Positions 2,164-10,380 of a stretch of 64,000 nucleotides of DNA are shown here, piece by piece (the stretch's first letter is position 1; every line of letters begins with the position of its first letter). The DNA lies in contig NZ_ML214297.1 in assembly GCF_004698125.1 (NCBI RefSeq), positions 124,001 to 188,000 of the forward strand. Reading direction: 5' to 3'. This DNA is from Halosimplex halophilum. Its GTDB lineage: Archaea > Halobacteriota > Halobacteria > Halobacteriales > Haloarculaceae. The notes under the pieces are model-generated. The model was not told where the DNA came from. It saw only the letters and a program-made list of their open reading frames with translations, and ran no database searches. A program made the position numbers and the translations under genes.

Positions 2164-4098
2164 ATGCCTCGCGACACTGACGGCTCGGACACCAGCCGAC
2201 GACGATTTCTGAAAGCGACCGGTGCGGCCGCGCTCACCTCGGCAGTTGCGGGCTGTGGGAGCGACGGCGGCGACACCGCCACGCCGGGTGACGGTGGCGA
2301 CGACGGCGGCGACGGGACCGACACCGGAACCGACACCGGTCCGGTGACGGTAAGCGAGTACCCCTACGGCGTGGGCGAGACGATGATCGGTGAGGCCCAG
2401 CGGGTGATGGAGGAAGCGGGCTACGGCCCGGACGACCGCTTCGAGCTCGACTGGCTGCAGTACGAGAGCCCGACGTGGTCGGAGATGGCGTCGACGATCG
2501 CCAGCCGGCTGGAGTCGGCGCACATCGACATGAACCAGAGCTCGGCGGCGTTCTCGCCGCTGCTGGAGGCCACCCGGAACGGCAACCACGAGGCGTACAC
2601 CCTCGGGTGGGTCGCCGACTACCCCGGCCCGCAGAACTTCGTCCAGCTGGTCGACCCGCGGAACACGGTCTACGACGAGAACGCGGCGGCCAACGGCGCC
2701 CGGCTGTTCTGGTCGGAGGACGCCGAGGCCGACCCCGAGGTCCGCCAGTACATGATCGACCAGTTCGAGCGGATCTCGAACAACCCCGAGGACACCGAGG
2801 AGGCCGCCGAGGTCCGCGGCGACGCCGCGGTGAAAATGGAAGAGGGGATGTGGCAGGAGGCCGCGCTCATCCCGATCTACCAGGGCGTCACCGAGGCGAT
2901 GTGGTACGACCACGTCGACTACAACCCGCCGGGACCGATGGAGCCCTCCCGGGCGAAGACCAGCAACTCCGTCGCGGGCCTGGAGGGCAAGGACCGACTC
3001 AGCACCATCTCCTCGACGTTCAGCAGCCTCGACCCGATCGCCTCCGGGAACACGGCCTCCGGGGGCAAGATCATGGACATGTTCGACGCGCTGACGAACT
3101 ACGTCAACGGGACGACCGAGGTCGAGAACCTGCTGGCCGAGGGGTACGAGGTCAGCGAGGACTTCCGCACCTACACGTTCACGCTGAAGGAGGGCGCGAC
3201 CTTCCACAACGGCGAGGAGGTCACCGCGCAGGACTTCGAGTACTCCATCAAGCGGCTGATGGTCTCGGACAACTCCACGAACGCGCGGTTCCCCGTCAGC
3301 GTCATGGGGATCGAACACGAGACCGAGGAGGTCACGGTCACCGACGACGAGGGCGACACCGTCACGGACACCGCCTCCGGCGAGCCGGAGACGACCACCC
3401 GGATCATCCCCGACTCGATCGGCGTCGAGGCGGTCGACGACTACACGCTGGAGATCACGACCAGCGAGCCGTTCGCGTTCTCGCTGTCGGTGCTGGCCTA
3501 CTCGGCGTTCTCGGCGGTTCCCGAGGGCATCGTCGGCGACGTTGAGGGCTACGACGGCGAGATGGAGTGGGAGGAGTTCTCCCAGAGCCCGGTCGGCGCC
3601 GGCCCCTTCGAGTTCGTCAACTGGGAGTCGGGTAACGGCGGCGAGATCGTCATGGACACCTTCGACGACTACCACGGCGAGGGCGCCTCCTTCGACGGCA
3701 TCGACGCCGCCATCCTCACCGAGACGCAGGCCCGGTACAACTACTTCCTCAACGAGAACGCGGACATCGGCGGCGTGCCCACGGCCCAGTACAACGCCGA
3801 CAGCGTGACCGTCGAGGAGACCGACGACGTTGGTCGTGACCTGGGGACCTACGACCTGGAGAACGGGACCACCGTCAACTACGCTCGGACCCCGGAAATC
3901 GGCACTTTCTACGTCGGCTTCAACATGGAGCAGGTGCCCAGGCCGGTCCGGCAGGCGATGGCCTACGTCATCAACCAGCCGGAGTTCATGGCGAACGTGT
4001 TCAAGGACCGCTTCGAGCCGGCCTACCACCTGACGCCGCCGCAGATCTTCCCCGGCGGGATCGAGGCCTACGACGAGCACGTCGGCGGCTCCGAGTGA
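2164..4098 (+). CDS. Peptide-type ABC transporter substrate-binding lipoprotein, apparently circularly permuted
   Basis: Extracellular family-5 (DppA/OppA-like) solute-binding protein, 644 residues. The N-terminus is a Tat lipoprotein signal: SRRRFLK with the twin Arg at 12-14, and lipobox AVAGC with Cys31, then a Gly/Asp/Thr linker to about residue 60. The order of the mature fold is unusual. Residues ~64-255 look like the part that normally ends these proteins (AQRVMEEAGYGPDDRFELDW, a GWVADYPGPQNF segment, a late helical region). Residues ~268-644 look like the part that normally begins them (a TISSTFSSLDPI opening and YTFTLKEGATFHNGEEVTAQ) and end at AYHLTPPQIFPGG, where the C-terminal lobe would usually follow. 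It heads an operon with two permeases and two ATPases. Substrate is probably peptides or similar oligomers, by family only. Confidence 0.88.
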   Translation: MPRDTDGSDTSRRRFLKATGAAALTSAVAGCGSDGGDTATPGDGGDDGGDGTDTGTDTGPVTVSEYPYGVGETMIGEAQRVMEEAGYGPDDRFELDWLQYESPTWSEMASTIASRLESAHIDMNQSSAAFSPLLEATRNGNHEAYTLGWVADYPGPQNFVQLVDPRNTVYDENAAANGARLFWSEDAEADPEVRQYMIDQFERISNNPEDTEEAAEVRGDAAVKMEEGMWQEAALIPIYQGVTEAMWYDHVDYNPPGPMEPSRAKTSNSVAGLEGKDRLSTISSTFSSLDPIASGNTASGGKIMDMFDALTNYVNGTTEVENLLAEGYEVSEDFRTYTFTLKEGATFHNGEEVTAQDFEYSIKRLMVSDNSTNARFPVSVMGIEHETEEVTVTDDEGDTVTDTASGEPETTTRIIPDSIGVEAVDDYTLEITTSEPFAFSLSVLAYSAFSAVPEGIVGDVEGYDGEMEWEEFSQSPVGAGPFEFVNWESGNGGEIVMDTFDDYHGEGASFDGIDAAILTETQARYNYFLNENADIGGVPTAQYNADSVTVEETDDVGRDLGTYDLENGTTVNYARTPEIGTFYVGFNMEQVPRPVRQAMAYVINQPEFMANVFKDRFEPAYHLTPPQIFPGGIEAYDEHVGGSE

Positions 4099-4204: not shown

Positions 4205-5275
4205 ATGAACAAACTCCTGTATATCGCGAAGCGCCTCGTCCTCGGGGTGCCGGTGGTCCTGTTCGGACTCACGATGACGTTCGTCATCCTCTACCTGTCG
4301 CCGTTCGACCCGATGACCGCGATCCTGGGTCGTGACGCGGACCCCCAGACCGCCCGGCAACTCGCGGTCTCGCTCGGCCTCCGGTACCCGAACGGCGAGC
4401 CCGTCCCCCTGTGGATACAGTACCGGGACTTCCTGATCGATACGGTCACGTTCAACTTCGGCCAGTCGTGGGTCGTCACCCGCGGCCAGTCGGCCGCCCA
4501 GCTCATCTGGGAACGGATGCCCGCGACGCTGTGGCTCGGCATCTGGTCGGTCGTCATCGCGCTGGCGCTGGGCATCCCGCTGGGGCTGTACGCCGGCCTC
4601 CGGGCCAACACCTGGGGCGACTACACCGCCTCCTTCGGCGGGATCGTCTGGCGCGCCATGCCGAACTTCTGGCTGGCCGTGATGCTCGCCGGCCTGCTGT
4701 CGGCCGGCGGCCTGCTGTCGTTCTACCGGGGGTTCCTGATACCGACCGACGTGATCGGCACCCCGGCGGCGCTGGGCAACCTGTTCGGCAGCTACTCGCT
4801 GGGCCCGGTCGGGATCCCGGTCCCCGACCCCTACAACTGGGCGGTCGCGTTCAAGTGGATCCTCCCGGCCGCGCTCGTGCTCGGCTCCTCGTCGATGGGC
4901 AACGAGGTCCGCATCGGACGGACCGCGGTGCTGGAGAGCCTCAACTCCCCCTACATCGACACGGCCAAGGCCAAGGGGGTCTCCGAGCGGGTGATCGTCG
5001 GGAAACACGTCGCGCGCAACGCGATGATCCCGCTGTTGCCGGTGATCATGGGCGAGTTCTACCTGCTCATCGGCGGGTCCGTGCTCGTGGAGCTCATCTT
5101 CGGGATCCGCGGGCTCGGGAACCTCTTCCTCTCGGCGGTCCTCGCGTCGGACGTACCGATCATCGGCGCGCTCACCTACGTATTCATCCTCATACTCGTG
5201 TTCTTCAACATCGCACAGGACGTGGCGTACACGATCATCGACCCGCGGATCGGCCTGGAGGGCCGGGAGGACTGA
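4205..5275 (+). CDS. dppB: Peptide-type ABC transporter permease, DppB/OppB family
   Basis: Inner-membrane permease of 356 residues, the usual length for the family, with six predicted membrane segments. The first is LYIAKRLVLGVPVVLFGLTM near the N-terminus, the segment that DppB proteins place just after their start. The EAA-type loop that docks the ATPase is at about residues 250-275 (TAKAKGVSERVIVGKHVARN). GGAGA-like purine-rich sequence lies a few bases before the ATG. The gene follows the binding-protein gene after 106 bp and precedes the second permease by 4 bp, so the two permeases are surely co-transcribed and form the heterodimeric channel. Confidence 0.92.
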   Translation: MNKLLYIAKRLVLGVPVVLFGLTMTFVILYLSPFDPMTAILGRDADPQTARQLAVSLGLRYPNGEPVPLWIQYRDFLIDTVTFNFGQSWVVTRGQSAAQLIWERMPATLWLGIWSVVIALALGIPLGLYAGLRANTWGDYTASFGGIVWRAMPNFWLAVMLAGLLSAGGLLSFYRGFLIPTDVIGTPAALGNLFGSYSLGPVGIPVPDPYNWAVAFKWILPAALVLGSSSMGNEVRIGRTAVLESLNSPYIDTAKAKGVSERVIVGKHVARNAMIPLLPVIMGEFYLLIGGSVLVELIFGIRGLGNLFLSAVLASDVPIIGALTYVFILILVFFNIAQDVAYTIIDPRIGLEGRED

Positions 5276-5279
5276 GACG

Positions 5280-6827
5280 ATGTGTGCGACGATCACCGAC
5301 TCGGCGCGCGACCGGGACCGGCGCGAGGAGACGCGGCTGCGCGACCGGCTGCTGGCCAACCCCGAACCGGCGCTGCGGTGGGGGGCGGTCGCCCTCGTGC
5401 TGGTCGCAGTCGAGCTCGGCGCGCTCGCCGGCGGCCTCCTGTTGCTGCTCGACGCGACGGTCATCGGGGTCACGGCGCTGATCGAGGTGATACTCGGCGC
5501 CTTCTCCCCGAGGGCCGGCGAGGCGGTCTACGCCGCCCAGCAGGCCGCCAGCGGCTTCCTCGACGGGCTCCGGTCCGCAGCCGGGAACGTCCCGACGCTG
5601 CTGTCCCGGGAGACGATCCCCAACGAGGGGTACAAGACGGGGCCGAACGGGCCCTGGGAGGGCACGTTCCTCGGGCTGCAGCCGGCGGTCGCCTGGGCGA
5701 TCCGGCTCGTGCTCGTCTACCTGTACGCCGCGGTCGTGTTCTACTGGGTCTACCGCGGCTGGCTGGTCTTCCGCGACCACTACCGCCAGGTCGACTGGAC
5801 GCCCCGCGACGACGTGGTCGACCGCCTGCGCGACCACCGCTGGGGCCAGTTCGGCATCGTCGTCGTCCTCGTGTTCGTGACGATGGCGCTGTTCGCCCCG
5901 GCGCTGGGGCCGACGACCGTCGAGCAGAACATCCAGTCGCCGTACAGCCACGAGATCCAGTATTACGACGCCGAGAGCGGGAGCGTCGAGACGGTGTACG
6001 TCGGCGACGCCAACTTCAACTCGAAGTCGAAGGGCCAGGGCGACCAGAACGTCGGGCCGATGACCTACGACGACTACGGCCGGTTCCACCCGTTCGGGAC
6101 CCTGACCAACGGCCGCGACCTGTTCACGTTCTCGGTGGCCGGCGCCCGGATCTCGATGATGATCGGGGGGCTGTCCATCGTGCTGGCGTCGCTGCTGGCG
6201 GTCATCGCGTCGATGACCTCGGCGTACTACAAGGGGCTCGTCGACCTGGTGACGATCCTCGTCGCGGACGGGATCACCTCCATACCGGGGCTGCTGTTGC
6301 TGTTGATGGTCGGGATGGCCTTCCAGGGCCACTGGCTGACGGGGGTGCTCCACGGCGGGTTCCTCTACGCGGTGACCTTCGGGATCATCCTCTTCCCGAG
6401 CCTGTGGCGGTCGGTGCGCGGCCCCGCCTTGCAGGTCTCCGAGGAGGAGTGGATCGACGCCGCCAAGAGCTTCGGTCAGCGCCCGCGGACGACCATGCGT
6501 AAGCACATGCTCCCGTACGTGGTGCCGTACCTGCTCGTCTACGGGTCGATGACCGTCGGCGGGGTCATCATCTCGATGGCGGCGCTGTCGTTCATCGGGA
6601 GCGGGCTCGGCATCAACCCGCCGACCCCCGCCTGGGGACGCGCCATCGACATGGGGCGCAACTACGTCTCCACCCAGTCGTGGCACATCGCGCTGATCCC
6701 GGGGATACTGATCGTCGTGCTCGTGACCGGGCTCAACGCCTTCGGTGACGGCATCCGCGACGCCATCGACCCCGAGAGCGAGGGCGGCGGTGAGGAGGAG
6801 GCGGCCGCGGGAGGTGCCGCCGGATGA
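5280..6827 (+). CDS. dppC: Peptide-type ABC transporter permease, DppC/OppC family, with long N-terminal extension
   Basis: Second permease. At 515 residues it is some 200 longer than ordinary DppC (about 300). The conserved channel core is residues ~275-505, with the ATPase-docking loop near 385-410 (WIDAAKSFGQRPRTTMRKHM). The extension holds extra hydrophobic segments near residues 37-58 and 140-160, plus a hydrophilic stretch at ~235-270 rich in Tyr, Asn and acidic residues that lies between a membrane helix and the core. The C-terminus ends in an acidic and Ala/Gly tail. ATG at 5280 is 4 bp behind the previous stop, and the stop overlaps the next ATG (ATGA), showing tight coupling to the ATPase gene. 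Confidence 0.9.
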   Translation: MCATITDSARDRDRREETRLRDRLLANPEPALRWGAVALVLVAVELGALAGGLLLLLDATVIGVTALIEVILGAFSPRAGEAVYAAQQAASGFLDGLRSAAGNVPTLLSRETIPNEGYKTGPNGPWEGTFLGLQPAVAWAIRLVLVYLYAAVVFYWVYRGWLVFRDHYRQVDWTPRDDVVDRLRDHRWGQFGIVVVLVFVTMALFAPALGPTTVEQNIQSPYSHEIQYYDAESGSVETVYVGDANFNSKSKGQGDQNVGPMTYDDYGRFHPFGTLTNGRDLFTFSVAGARISMMIGGLSIVLASLLAVIASMTSAYYKGLVDLVTILVADGITSIPGLLLLLMVGMAFQGHWLTGVLHGGFLYAVTFGIILFPSLWRSVRGPALQVSEEEWIDAAKSFGQRPRTTMRKHMLPYVVPYLLVYGSMTVGGVIISMAALSFIGSGLGINPPTPAWGRAIDMGRNYVSTQSWHIALIPGILIVVLVTGLNAFGDGIRDAIDPESEGGGEEEAAAGGAAG

Positions 6828-7990
6828 GCGCCCCCTACTCGGGCGACGCCGGGGCGTCGGCCCGCGACCGGGACGGCGAGGAGCCGGTCCTCTCGGTGCG
6901 GGACCTCCGGACCGTCTTCAGGACCGACCGCGAGACCATCCACGCCGTCGACGGGATCGACCTGGACCTCTACGAGGGCGAGACGGTCGGGCTCGTCGGC
7001 GAGTCCGGCTCGGGCAAGTCCGTCACCGCCCGGTCGATCATGGGGCTGGTCGAGGAGCCCGGGGAGGTCCTCCCCGGTTCGTCGATCAGGTTCAGGGGCG
7101 AGGAGATCACCGGCTACGACACCGCCCAGTACCAGGAGCTGCGGGGCAGCGGCATCGGGATGATCTTCCAGGACCCGCTGTCGTCGCTCAACCCCGTGTT
7201 CACCGTCGGCAACCAGATCAAGGAGGCGCTGAAGGTCAACCGCGGGATCACCGGCGAGGCCGCCCGCGAGGAAGCCATCGAGCTGCTCGAGGCGGTCCAG
7301 ATCCCGGACGCGGCCCGCCGGCTGGGGGAGTACCCCCACGAGTTCTCCGGCGGGATGCGCCAGCGGGCGGTCATCGCGATGATGCTCGCCTGCGAACCCG
7401 AGGTGCTGATCTGCGACGAGCCGACGACCGCGCTGGACGTGACCATCCAGGCGCAGATCCTGGAGCTCCTGCGGGACCTCCAGGAGGAACGCGGCCTGTC
7501 GATCCTGTTCATCACCCACGACATGGGCGTCATCGCCGACGTCACCGACCGCGTGAACGTGATGTACGCCGGCGAGATCGTCGAGAAGGCGCCGACCGAG
7601 GAGCTGTTCGCGAACCCGCGCCACCCCTACACGGAGGGACTGCTTGAGGCGATCCCCGGCCAGCACGCCGACGAGGACCGCCTGCGGACCATCGAGGGCG
7701 AGGTGCCGACCCCCAACGAGGCGGCGACCCACTGCCGGTTCGCGCCGCGGTGCCCGAAGGCCTTCGAGGAGTGCGAGGCGGTCCACCCGGAGCTCGTCGA
7801 GGTCGACGAGAGCACGACCGACCACACCGCGGCCTGCCTGCTCTACCCCGAACACATGACGACGCCGGAGGCCGTCGCCCACCACGAGCGACTGGGCGAG
7901 GCCGACGACGAGGCCGCCGACGCGGACGAAGGGACGGGCCCGGCGGAGCCCGGCGACGACGTCGCGGCCGACGGAGGTGACCGACGATGA
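6824..7990 (+). CDS. dppD: Peptide-type ABC transporter ATPase, DppD/OppD family
   Basis: Cytoplasmic ATPase that powers the two permeases, 388 residues. Walker A GESGSGKS is at about 58-66, the ABC signature FSGGMRQRAVIA near 174, and Walker B LICDEPTTALD near 196. A C-terminal oligopeptide-transporter domain has the expected cysteines (CRFAPRCPKAFEECEAVHP then AACLLYP). The last ~35 residues are an acidic Ala/Asp tail. The start overlaps the stop of the second permease by 4 nt, and its own stop overlaps the start of the partner ATPase by 4 nt, so translation of all four is likely coupled. Confidence 0.93.
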   Translation: MSAPYSGDAGASARDRDGEEPVLSVRDLRTVFRTDRETIHAVDGIDLDLYEGETVGLVGESGSGKSVTARSIMGLVEEPGEVLPGSSIRFRGEEITGYDTAQYQELRGSGIGMIFQDPLSSLNPVFTVGNQIKEALKVNRGITGEAAREEAIELLEAVQIPDAARRLGEYPHEFSGGMRQRAVIAMMLACEPEVLICDEPTTALDVTIQAQILELLRDLQEERGLSILFITHDMGVIADVTDRVNVMYAGEIVEKAPTEELFANPRHPYTEGLLEAIPGQHADEDRLRTIEGEVPTPNEAATHCRFAPRCPKAFEECEAVHPELVEVDESTTDHTAACLLYPEHMTTPEAVAHHERLGEADDEAADADEGTGPAEPGDDVAADGGDRR

Positions 7991-9327
7991 GCGAGATGAC
8001 CCAGCAACGCGGTCGAACCGAACCGAGGGGAACCGGCGAGACGCTCGTCGAGGTCGAGGGGCTCAAGAAGTACTACGGCGGCGACGGCGTCTTCGCGGAC
8101 CCGCCGGTCAAGGCCGTCGACGGCGTGAGCTTCCGGATCCAGCGCGGCGAGACGCTCGGGCTCGTCGGCGAGTCCGGCTGCGGGAAGACGACGCTCGGGC
8201 GGACGCTCGTGCAGCTGGAGACGGCCACCGAGGGCACCGTCGAGTTCGACGGGACCGACGTGACCGAGCTGACCGGCGAGCGGCTCAAGCAGTGGCGGCG
8301 CAACGCCCAGATCGTCTTCCAGGACCCCGAGTCCAGCCTCAACGACCGGATGACCATCGGCGAGATCGTCCGCGAGCCGCTGGACGTCCACGAGGTGGGC
8401 ACGCCCGCCGAGCGCCGCGAGAAGGTCAAGGACCTGCTGGCCCAGGTCGGGCTCCAGCCCGAGCACTACTACCGGTACCCCCACCAGTTCTCCGGCGGCC
8501 AGCGCCAGCGGATCGGGATCGCCCGCGCGCTGGCGCTGGAACCGGAGTTCGTCGTCCTCGACGAGCCCGTCTCGGCGCTGGACACCTCCGTCCAGGCGAA
8601 GATCCTCAACCTGCTGGAGGACCTGCAGGACGAGTTCGACCTGACCTACCTGTTCATCGCTCACGACCTCTCCGTCGTGCGACACATCTGCGACCGCGTC
8701 GCGGTGATGTACCTCGGGAAGATCATGGAGATCGGGGCGACCGAGGAGCTGTACACCGACCCGGCCAACCCCTACACCCACTCGCTGCTGTCGGCGATCC
8801 CCGAGCCCGACCCGACCGTCCAGAAGGACCGGATCACGCTCCCGGGGACGCCGCCGAGCCCGCGGGACCCGCCGACGGGGTGTCAGCTGACGACCCGCTG
8901 TCCGGCGAAGATCTACCCCGAGGAGTACGACCACGTCGACCCCGAGACGTGGCACGACATCGAGCGGTTCCGCGAGGTGATCCGCGAGCGCACCCGCATC
9001 GACCTGACGGTCCGCGACCGGATCCGCCGGTCGCTCGGCGCCTTCCACCGGTTCGACGACATCGACGAGACGGTCGCCGACATGTTCGGCGACGGCGTCC
9101 CCGACGAGGTCCGCGAGCACGTCGAGCGGGCCGCCGAGCACGTCAAGGAGGGGTACCCCGACCGGGCGCGCGAGTACATGAGCACGCAGTTCGACGGCGT
9201 CTGCGACACCGAGCGGCCGGAGCTGTACCCGGTGGGCGAGACCGACCGGCTGAGCTACTGCCACCGCCACTCCGGGGAGTACGAGAGCGTCGAGTCGGTG
9301 CTCGGTCGCGGGTCCGATGGCGAGTAA
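7987..9327 (+). CDS. dppF: Peptide-type ABC transporter ATPase, DppF/OppF family, with a long C-terminal insertion
   Basis: Partner ATPase, 446 residues against about 320-350 for typical DppF. Walker A GESGCGKTT, signature FSGGQRQRIGIARA and Walker B VVLDEPVSALD are intact. The C-terminal oligopeptide-transporter domain begins normally (GCQLTTRCP, Cys299 and Cys305), but the next two cysteines come only at 406 and 425, because ~90 charged, helical residues (about 310-400) are inserted between them. In ordinary family members these cysteines lie within about 10-20 residues. Overlaps the preceding ATPase gene by 4 nt and the following small membrane-protein gene by 11 nt. Confidence 0.92.
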   Translation: MSEMTQQRGRTEPRGTGETLVEVEGLKKYYGGDGVFADPPVKAVDGVSFRIQRGETLGLVGESGCGKTTLGRTLVQLETATEGTVEFDGTDVTELTGERLKQWRRNAQIVFQDPESSLNDRMTIGEIVREPLDVHEVGTPAERREKVKDLLAQVGLQPEHYYRYPHQFSGGQRQRIGIARALALEPEFVVLDEPVSALDTSVQAKILNLLEDLQDEFDLTYLFIAHDLSVVRHICDRVAVMYLGKIMEIGATEELYTDPANPYTHSLLSAIPEPDPTVQKDRITLPGTPPSPRDPPTGCQLTTRCPAKIYPEEYDHVDPETWHDIERFREVIRERTRIDLTVRDRIRRSLGAFHRFDDIDETVADMFGDGVPDEVREHVERAAEHVKEGYPDRAREYMSTQFDGVCDTERPELYPVGETDRLSYCHRHSGEYESVESVLGRGSDGE

Positions 9328-9793: not shown

Positions 9794-9816
9794 GTGTGAA
9801 CGGCGTTGACCGAAGT

Positions 9817-10380
9817 ATGCCCCACCACGCCGAGAGTCCGGACGACGTCGACCGGAAGGAGGTCGTCGCCGACCACAGCGAGGAACTCAAGACCAACTGG
9901 CAGCGGGCGCTCGAGGACATGCAGGCGATGGCCGACGACCGCGAGGACCAGGGCTACGAGACGCTGGCCGTCCCGGCGGGGGACACGACGACGCTCTCGC
10001 CGTCGATGGGCGACGACGACACCTGGGGGCTCTCCCACGTCGTCCCGGACAACTTCGCCGAGGAGGTCGAGACGTACGTCGAGCGGTCCGACTTCGAGGA
10101 GACGGGCGTCTACCAGCTGGAGAGCGGCGGGTTCGTCTTCGTCGTGACCGAGTGCATCGACCACGACGAGGAACTCGTCCTCTTCGTCGCCGGCTCCTAC
10201 GACATGCGCTTCTCGGCCGGCCTCGTCCGCACCGCCGTCGAGCGCGACGAGATGTACACCCACCTCAGGACCCTCGACGGCACGGACCTGGGCACCGTCC
10301 GCCACGACGACCCCGCCGACTTCTTCCCCGAACCCGAGCAGTTCTACGCCTACGACATCACCGAGAGCGACGAGCGCTGA
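9817..10380 (+). CDS. Conserved haloarchaeal protein of unknown function
   Basis: 187 residues, strongly acidic, no membrane segment or signal. A helical N-terminal half (VVADHSEELKTNWQRALEDM) is followed by a strand-rich part (TGVYQLESGGFVFVVTECID, then ELVLFVAGSYDM). It resembles uncharacterised single-domain proteins found widely in Halobacteria (possibly DUF7529, from memory and not verified). The ATG at 9817 is preferred because of the TATA box 24-31 nt upstream. It stands alone between the transporter operon and a small membrane protein. No function can be named. Confidence 0.75.
   Translation: MPHHAESPDDVDRKEVVADHSEELKTNWQRALEDMQAMADDREDQGYETLAVPAGDTTTLSPSMGDDDTWGLSHVVPDNFAEEVETYVERSDFEETGVYQLESGGFVFVVTECIDHDEELVLFVAGSYDMRFSAGLVRTAVERDEMYTHLRTLDGTDLGTVRHDDPADFFPEPEQFYAYDITESDER

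Follow-up and report, generated by a model that had tools for sequence, protein, structure and literature searches.

A circularly permuted family-5 substrate-binding lipoprotein in Halosimplex halophilum, and recurrent permutation among its relatives

Introduction

Duplication followed by deletion is a mechanism of natural circular permutation. Such permutation is usually viewed as rare and as a single event per family. Natural cases have been surveyed across many proteins (PMC3281007, PMC2395249). The nearest precedent for the present case is a substrate-binding lipoprotein of Treponema pallidum, TpMglB-2 (Tp0684), a permuted protein of 'Type Ic / Cluster Bc' that binds glucose and changes its conformation on binding, and for which the authors suggested tethering as a reason for the permutation (PMC4990184). 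TpMglB-2 has a cluster B sugar-binding fold with one described topology. We found no published report of permuted family-5 proteins in a literature search that had little coverage of subscription journals.

Our subject is a gene in a 64,000-nucleotide stretch of DNA from Halosimplex halophilum (the window). Its product is homologous over the whole mature length to canonical DppA/OppA-type proteins (family 5, cluster C, PF00496) and shares with them the operon type and an Asp equivalent to OppA Asp419 / DppA Asp408, but it has the C-terminal segment first and the membrane anchor elsewhere. With TpMglB-2 it has in common a natural circular permutation in a lipid-anchored substrate-binding protein. 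Being a PF00496 protein and not of the cluster B fold, it does not belong to 'Type Ic / Cluster Bc', and its family differs from TpMglB-2 in being of cluster C (family 5), in having several cut sites and in the repetition of events in one syntenic operon. As in natural permutants generally, the old ends are joined by a short linker and the new ends lie elsewhere, and a fused tandem form is also present in the protein's class. Unlike in the general cases, one orthologous gene was cut at three places and once more inside a permuted clade.

Results

Segment order of the binding protein

The open reading frame at 2164-4098 (forward strand) encodes 644 amino acids and includes a Tat lipoprotein signal and a linker. 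Its parts, with the basis of each assignment, are as follows.

2164..4098, + strand: circularly permuted family-5 substrate-binding lipoprotein, CP-1 topology (profile and pairwise alignments)
2164..2256, + strand: Tat lipoprotein signal with RRR motif and lipobox VAGC, Cys31 (sequence; Pfam; NCBIfam)
2257..2352, + strand: Asp/Gly/Thr-rich linker, residues 32-63 (sequence; linker lengths)
2353..2967, + strand: first block, residues 64-268, the canonically C-terminal segment, profile positions 347-546 of 552 (profile alignment)
2617..2619, + strand: Asp152 in GWVADYPGP, on E. coli OppA Asp419 / DppA Asp408, mature numbering (alignment)
2968..2997, + strand: junction of the old C-terminus to the old N-terminus, residues 269-278 (profile; dN/dS)
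2998..4083, + strand: second block, residues 279-640, the canonically N-terminal segment, profile positions 5-345 (profile alignment)

The signal region combines a twin-arginine motif with a lipobox Cys (RRRFLKATG...VAGC), the two marks of a Tat-exported lipoprotein, and export itself is only inferred. NCBIfam TIGR01409 matches this region above its cut-off and Pfam TAT_signal below its cut-off.

A preliminary description of this DNA had claimed that the second block of a DppA/OppA-type protein is placed first here, and this was confirmed by three comparisons. PF00496 gives 205 bits against a curated cut-off of 32.4, which places the protein in family 5 / cluster C by score. Positions 257-359 of the model match 2356-2649 of the window (residues 65-162) and positions 1-260 match 3118-4077, so the later part of the model comes first. 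The same genome also holds a canonical-order relative with a separate operon (G000:C1:1208053-1209669, 659 aa); residues 282-640 of our protein correspond to its 107-444 and residues 66-252 to its 459-640, again in swapped order. The third comparison used a canonical profile of 16 aligned haloarchaeal proteins (552 positions), on which residues 64-268 match 347-546 (i-E 1.4e-59) and residues 279-640 match 5-345 (i-E 3.3e-140). When this alignment was written twice to give a doubled profile of 1104 positions, residues 64-640 aligned in one stretch, 347-897, with 675 bits, and canonical proteins aligned from about 2 to 551. The single stretch spans the whole circle once, which implies neither loss nor duplication, and the earlier statement that both blocks are complete thus holds. 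A rotated start with continuous alignment to the doubled parent is the mark of a natural circular permutant. All canonical segments of family 5 are present and only their order is not canonical, and we file the protein as a permuted variant, homologous to family 5, and not as a standard member.

The two blocks are 46% and 48% identical to those of a canonical Haloferax protein (L018), with the order swapped. In a scan of every rotation in 10-residue steps, scored by the best single match to the canonical profile, the window protein scores 409 bits unrotated and reaches 581 bits when rotated near residue 270, and the canonical haloarchaeal proteins tested as controls gain less than 1 bit. A profile made only of E. 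coli proteins was too distant and gave 112 bits with or without rotation of the window gene; it did show a rotation gain for some other proteins. Judged from these alignments, chance is excluded as an explanation of the swapped order.

The blocks had been placed at residues 64-255 and 268-644. That there are two blocks stands, with the limits now corrected to 64-268 and 279-640. They had also been called swapped lobes, of which the circular permutation can be kept but not the lobes, as what has changed places is two segments of the chain. With the cut close to where the canonical C-terminal third begins, the first block is this third and the second block all that canonically precedes it. The junction at 269-278 has no remnant of a signal or linker. 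It is hardly credible that an unrelated domain was added as residues 64-268 and that the remainder is a complete or degenerate binding protein, as might be read from the Pfam best-stretch listing, which covers only 319-637: we rejected this on the PF00496 match at residues 65-162 and the canonical-profile matches of both blocks, the first block being 28-46% identical to canonical C-terminal segments and the second ending at canonical position 345 of 552. The finding that would have refuted the permutation is therefore absent, in that residues 64-255 are not a foreign domain and the part after 268 is without a C-terminal third.

Conservation and operon context

Among the proteins sampled, 34 from at least 11 genera have the CP-1 order. 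Its sharing among haloarchaea can now be given as a count, 27 of the 392 genomes drawn (11 genera, four families), and several CP-1 genomes are single contigs. Alignment of 32 other CP-1 proteins with the window protein gave identities of 50-90%; Asp152 is invariant in all 33, and the twin arginines and lipobox are present in 34 of 34 CP-1 proteins. Comparison with seven close relatives gave dN/dS of 0.20-0.39 for the first block and 0.19-0.34 for the second, values that show both blocks to be under purifying selection. The junction region (256-283) has dN/dS of 0.08-0.18 against the four closest relatives and is more variable against others. One gene with swapped halves is a recognised symptom of mis-assembly, but an assembly or annotation artefact, or two genes falsely joined, is practically ruled out here by a single open frame with a single signal, by the conservation of the junction among the closest relatives and above all by recurrence, since the 34 sampled CP-1 proteins come from many independent genomes, some of them single-contig. 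The earlier dismissal of an assembly error was correct.

Downstream of the binding protein lie four transporter genes.

4205..5275, + strand: DppB/OppB-type permease (PF00528; synteny)
5280..6827, + strand: DppC/OppC-type permease with a long N-terminal extension (PF00528, PF12911; synteny)
6824..7990, + strand: DppD-type ATPase (PF00005, PF08352)
7987..9327, + strand: DppF-type ATPase (PF00005, PF08352)

With its two permeases and two oligo_HPY ATPases next to the binding-protein gene this is a Dpp/Opp-type operon, and the gene order B, C, D, F, which a DUF7529 gene often follows, is common to loci with canonical, CP-1, CP-2 and CP-3 binding proteins (the latter two topologies are described below). 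A working gene in a normal five-gene operon, as had been proposed, is supported by the BCDF genes, the selection estimates and the conserved order. Alignment of the first block to the C-terminal parts of OppA and DppA from E. coli puts Asp152 on Asp419 / Asp408, and we take these residues to bind the alpha-amino group of the peptide. This alignment and the invariance of Asp152 would make peptide binding likely, in the absence of binding data; the alignment alone is only suggestive of peptide binding or transport.

The explanation that we consider best, and in which we have high confidence, is that the gene encodes a working family-5 peptide-binding protein, lipid-anchored and part of a DppBCDF-type ABC importer, with a mature chain that is naturally circularly permuted. 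Its order, completeness, conservation and operon are observed, as is the recurrence of permutation among its relatives. Its ligand and its coupling to the importer are inferred, and no expression, binding, uptake or solved-structure data stand behind the function or the fold.

Predicted structure

The fold was inferred from AF2 models. Canonical L018 was modelled with pLDDT 87 and pTM 0.84, and the window protein gave a mediocre model (pLDDT 66, pTM 0.63). The secondary-structure elements of the two models correspond in swapped order: H75-84, E93-100, H103-117, E121-128 and H130-138 of the window protein are H422-431, E440-446, H450-464, E468-474 and H477-485 of L018, and E278-283 ... H593-602, H605-612 and H633-641 are E67-72 ... 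H362-371, H374-381 and H401-412. Foldseek depends on chain order. With it the canonical model aligned to solved OppA/DppA-type proteins over about 555-595 columns (TM by target about 0.7-0.85), and the permuted model over only about 230-325 columns (mostly 0.33-0.38). This partial coverage is consistent with what a permutation predicts of the model. The comparison with a non-permuted form that had been proposed thus finds the elements in the swapped order, but it leaves the fold unproven, as a moderate model can only be said to be consistent with a fold of three domains in two lobes.

Other cut sites in the same operon

The same binding protein is permuted at two further loops.

L016, 5893-7806: CP-2, the same binding protein permuted at another loop
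L077, G180:C1:97274-99109: CP-2, the same binding protein
L105-L117, L119, L124, L041, L044, L052: CP-3, a third loop of the same binding protein

CP-2 opens near canonical position 112-117, in Haloglomus irregulare (L016) and in genome G180 (L077), and CP-3 opens near canonical position 467, in sixteen proteins. Residues 57-486 of L077 correspond to 182-612 of L018 (64% identical) and 494-606 to 66-177 (61%), while the match to the signal region of L018 is kept in the first 42 residues. In the CP-3 protein L119, residues 54-154 correspond to 548-648 of canonical L047 (54%) and 156-616 to 82-549 (62%). Including these, pairwise swaps were seen at 42-68% identity in five pairs (L007/L174, L175/L178, L119/L047, L077/L018 and L016/L066). 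L119 and L077 lie in contigs of 2.7-4.1 Mb beside an intact operon, and the contig that carries L016 measures 710 kb. Among the genomes examined, neither L119 nor L077 has a congener that shares its order.

In a tree of 77 close-family proteins, each rotated to one order, the topologies require a minimum of 5 changes, against a mean of 35.5 after shuffling. CP-1 and L016 form one supported clade, in which CP-1 has long internal branches. L016 is nested within it and is most simply read as a permuted gene that was permuted again. L077 is placed among canonical proteins. CP-3 arose at least two times independently.

Permuted proteins in the wider family 5

For the wider family we used a generic doubled profile (469 positions) for which most of the sequences were canonical members from bacteria and archaea. 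The cut sites and further permuted proteins are the following.

Site A, near 98: CP-2
Site B, near 295: the window clade; also L180/L214
Site C, near 316: about twenty haloarchaeal proteins; L175
Site D, near 393-416: CP-3; L119; L007; L228
L007, G000:C1:1200921-1202003, - strand: permuted, divergent subfamily, the window's genome
L004, G000:C4:107636-108538, + strand: permuted, divergent subfamily, the window's genome
L131, G000:C3:662076-663098, + strand: permuted, divergent subfamily, the window's genome
L228, 727-2871, reverse strand: permuted, Sec-like lipoprotein signal, from a same-phylum archaeon outside the haloarchaeal order
L231, 4998-6674: permuted at site C, Ketogulonicigenium vulgare WP_273692309.1, in a full transporter operon
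L232, 4962-6683: permuted at site C, Neorhizobium galegae homologue (Alphaproteobacteria)

With L007, L004 and L131 the genome of the window has four permuted family-5 proteins among 19 family matches. The sisters of L175 (L178 and L179) are canonical. We dropped the idea that permutation is confined to haloarchaea on finding L228 in a non-haloarchaeal archaeon and the two alphaproteobacterial proteins. Two other bacterial tblastn matches (L233 and L234), seemingly collinear with permuted queries, proved canonical. As a rough bacterial control we took 60 records spread over the 3,343 plasmid records that match E. coli DppA; all were single-piece matches, most of them over 70-100% of the query. 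Nearly all family matches in same-phylum genomes outside the haloarchaeal order span the full profile length.

A tree of 107 proteins gave 12 changes as labelled. L044 was labelled canonical in it, since its small leading block scored low, and is CP-3 by the doubled profile. This mislabel inflates the number, and with the weak deep support we take about ten events at four recurring sites as an approximate estimate from sequence data.

Discussion

How the permuted forms arose is inferred. The likely route would be a tandem duplication, an in-frame fusion and then trimming at both ends, so that the mature domain was rotated repeatedly behind a retained N-terminal signal and linker. In the window protein the old N- and C-termini are fused by the short junction and the new termini were opened in the loop just before the 'AQRVMEEAGY' helix. 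The product is expected to keep the usual two-lobed clam fold, in which Asp152 would bind the alpha-amino group of the peptide, and should hand the peptide to the same permeases as the canonical form, with the membrane attached at a different point of the protein surface. The signal peptides stay homologous across permutants while the mature part rotates, which is consistent with trimming behind a retained signal. L188 (G013:C1) is a 1292-aa in-frame tandem of two canonical family-5 domains with halves 69% identical, plausibly the type of intermediate expected from duplication and fusion, but of a different subfamily. L189-L191 were considered as fused tandems and rejected; their very long frames are merely over-extended upstream starts.

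The recurrence itself, which the sequences show, amounts to at least five topology changes in the syntenic operon and an estimated ten or so in wider family 5, at four loops. We think it probable that archaeal, and above all haloarchaeal, family 5 is a natural laboratory of recurrent circular permutation, with about ten independent events, four hot-spot loops, re-permutation in a permuted clade and changes in place within one syntenic operon, perhaps eased by Tat. Tat is the main haloarchaeal export route and carries folded proteins (PMC2910488). That the export of folded proteins relaxes constraints on chain order, and so aids recurrence, is only a hypothesis, and Tat cannot be required given that L228 and the Neorhizobium protein have, by eye, Sec-like signals.

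One question is the role of the lipid anchor. The permutations could be adaptive, shifting the anchor to a preferred point of the protein, as was raised by the authors of TpMglB-2 as a reason in that case (PMC4990184). The reuse of the same few sites and the lipid anchoring of nearly all close-family permuted proteins would fit such a role. However, lipid anchoring is just as general among the canonical sisters, whose linkers are about as long (median 38 residues in canonical, 34 in CP-1 and 32 in CP-3 proteins), the permeases are homologous beside canonical and permuted forms, the anchor has been shifted to several different places, and structural tolerance with chance explains the data as well. 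The similar linker length after the Cys argues against a large effect of the anchor on docking, and together with the equal anchoring it leads us not to favour tethering as the cause; an adaptive anchor remains possible but doubtful.

The number of events could also be smaller, if recombination or horizontal transfer had spread a small number of permuted genes with their topologies. In support of this, CP-1 forms a single clade whose internal branches are long, and the site-C proteins of haloarchaea and Alphaproteobacteria may share one origin. This has little else in its favour when L119, L077, L007 and L175 each stand among canonical sisters and L016 sits inside the CP-1 clade, and we consider it improbable beside the recurrent permutation described above.

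It seems very unlikely, too, that the permuted protein no longer feeds the importer and is now a sensor or scavenging lipoprotein. Such a change could be imagined from a divergent permuted subfamily that has a PAP2 phosphatase as its neighbour and, in the stretches read, no annotated permease, but the window clade retains its full syntenic BCDF operon, the putative peptide-binding Asp is kept, and the gene is under purifying selection. We therefore keep to a binding protein of the importer.

In these proteins one orthologous gene in one conserved operon was re-cut several times at the same few loops. This provides a natural series for asking which new ends are tolerated, what the anchor position does in docking and where permutations come from. 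There is also a practical side, as profile tools list permuted proteins by partial matches and structure searches that depend on chain order capture only about half of them.

Minor observations

After the operon comes a DUF7529 gene (9796-10380 in the window), and several lineages keep the two in synteny. DppD has an insert of about 65-100 residues, near residues 94-106 of the window DppD, in CP-3 operons, L119 and L120; it was present in L105-L109, L114, L119, L120 and L124 and absent from CP-1, L016, L018 and L121. The CP-3 protein L117 (5792-8689) has 965 aa, about 410 of them ahead of the binding domain, and in its neighbourhood no counterpart of the window's transporter genes was detected.

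At L235 (3169-8594) and L236 (5995-8723) members of a permuted subfamily lie directly upstream of a gene for a PAP2 phosphatase, and the annotation of the stretch shows no permease. Natronorubrum bangense has a tandem duplication of this module of two genes.
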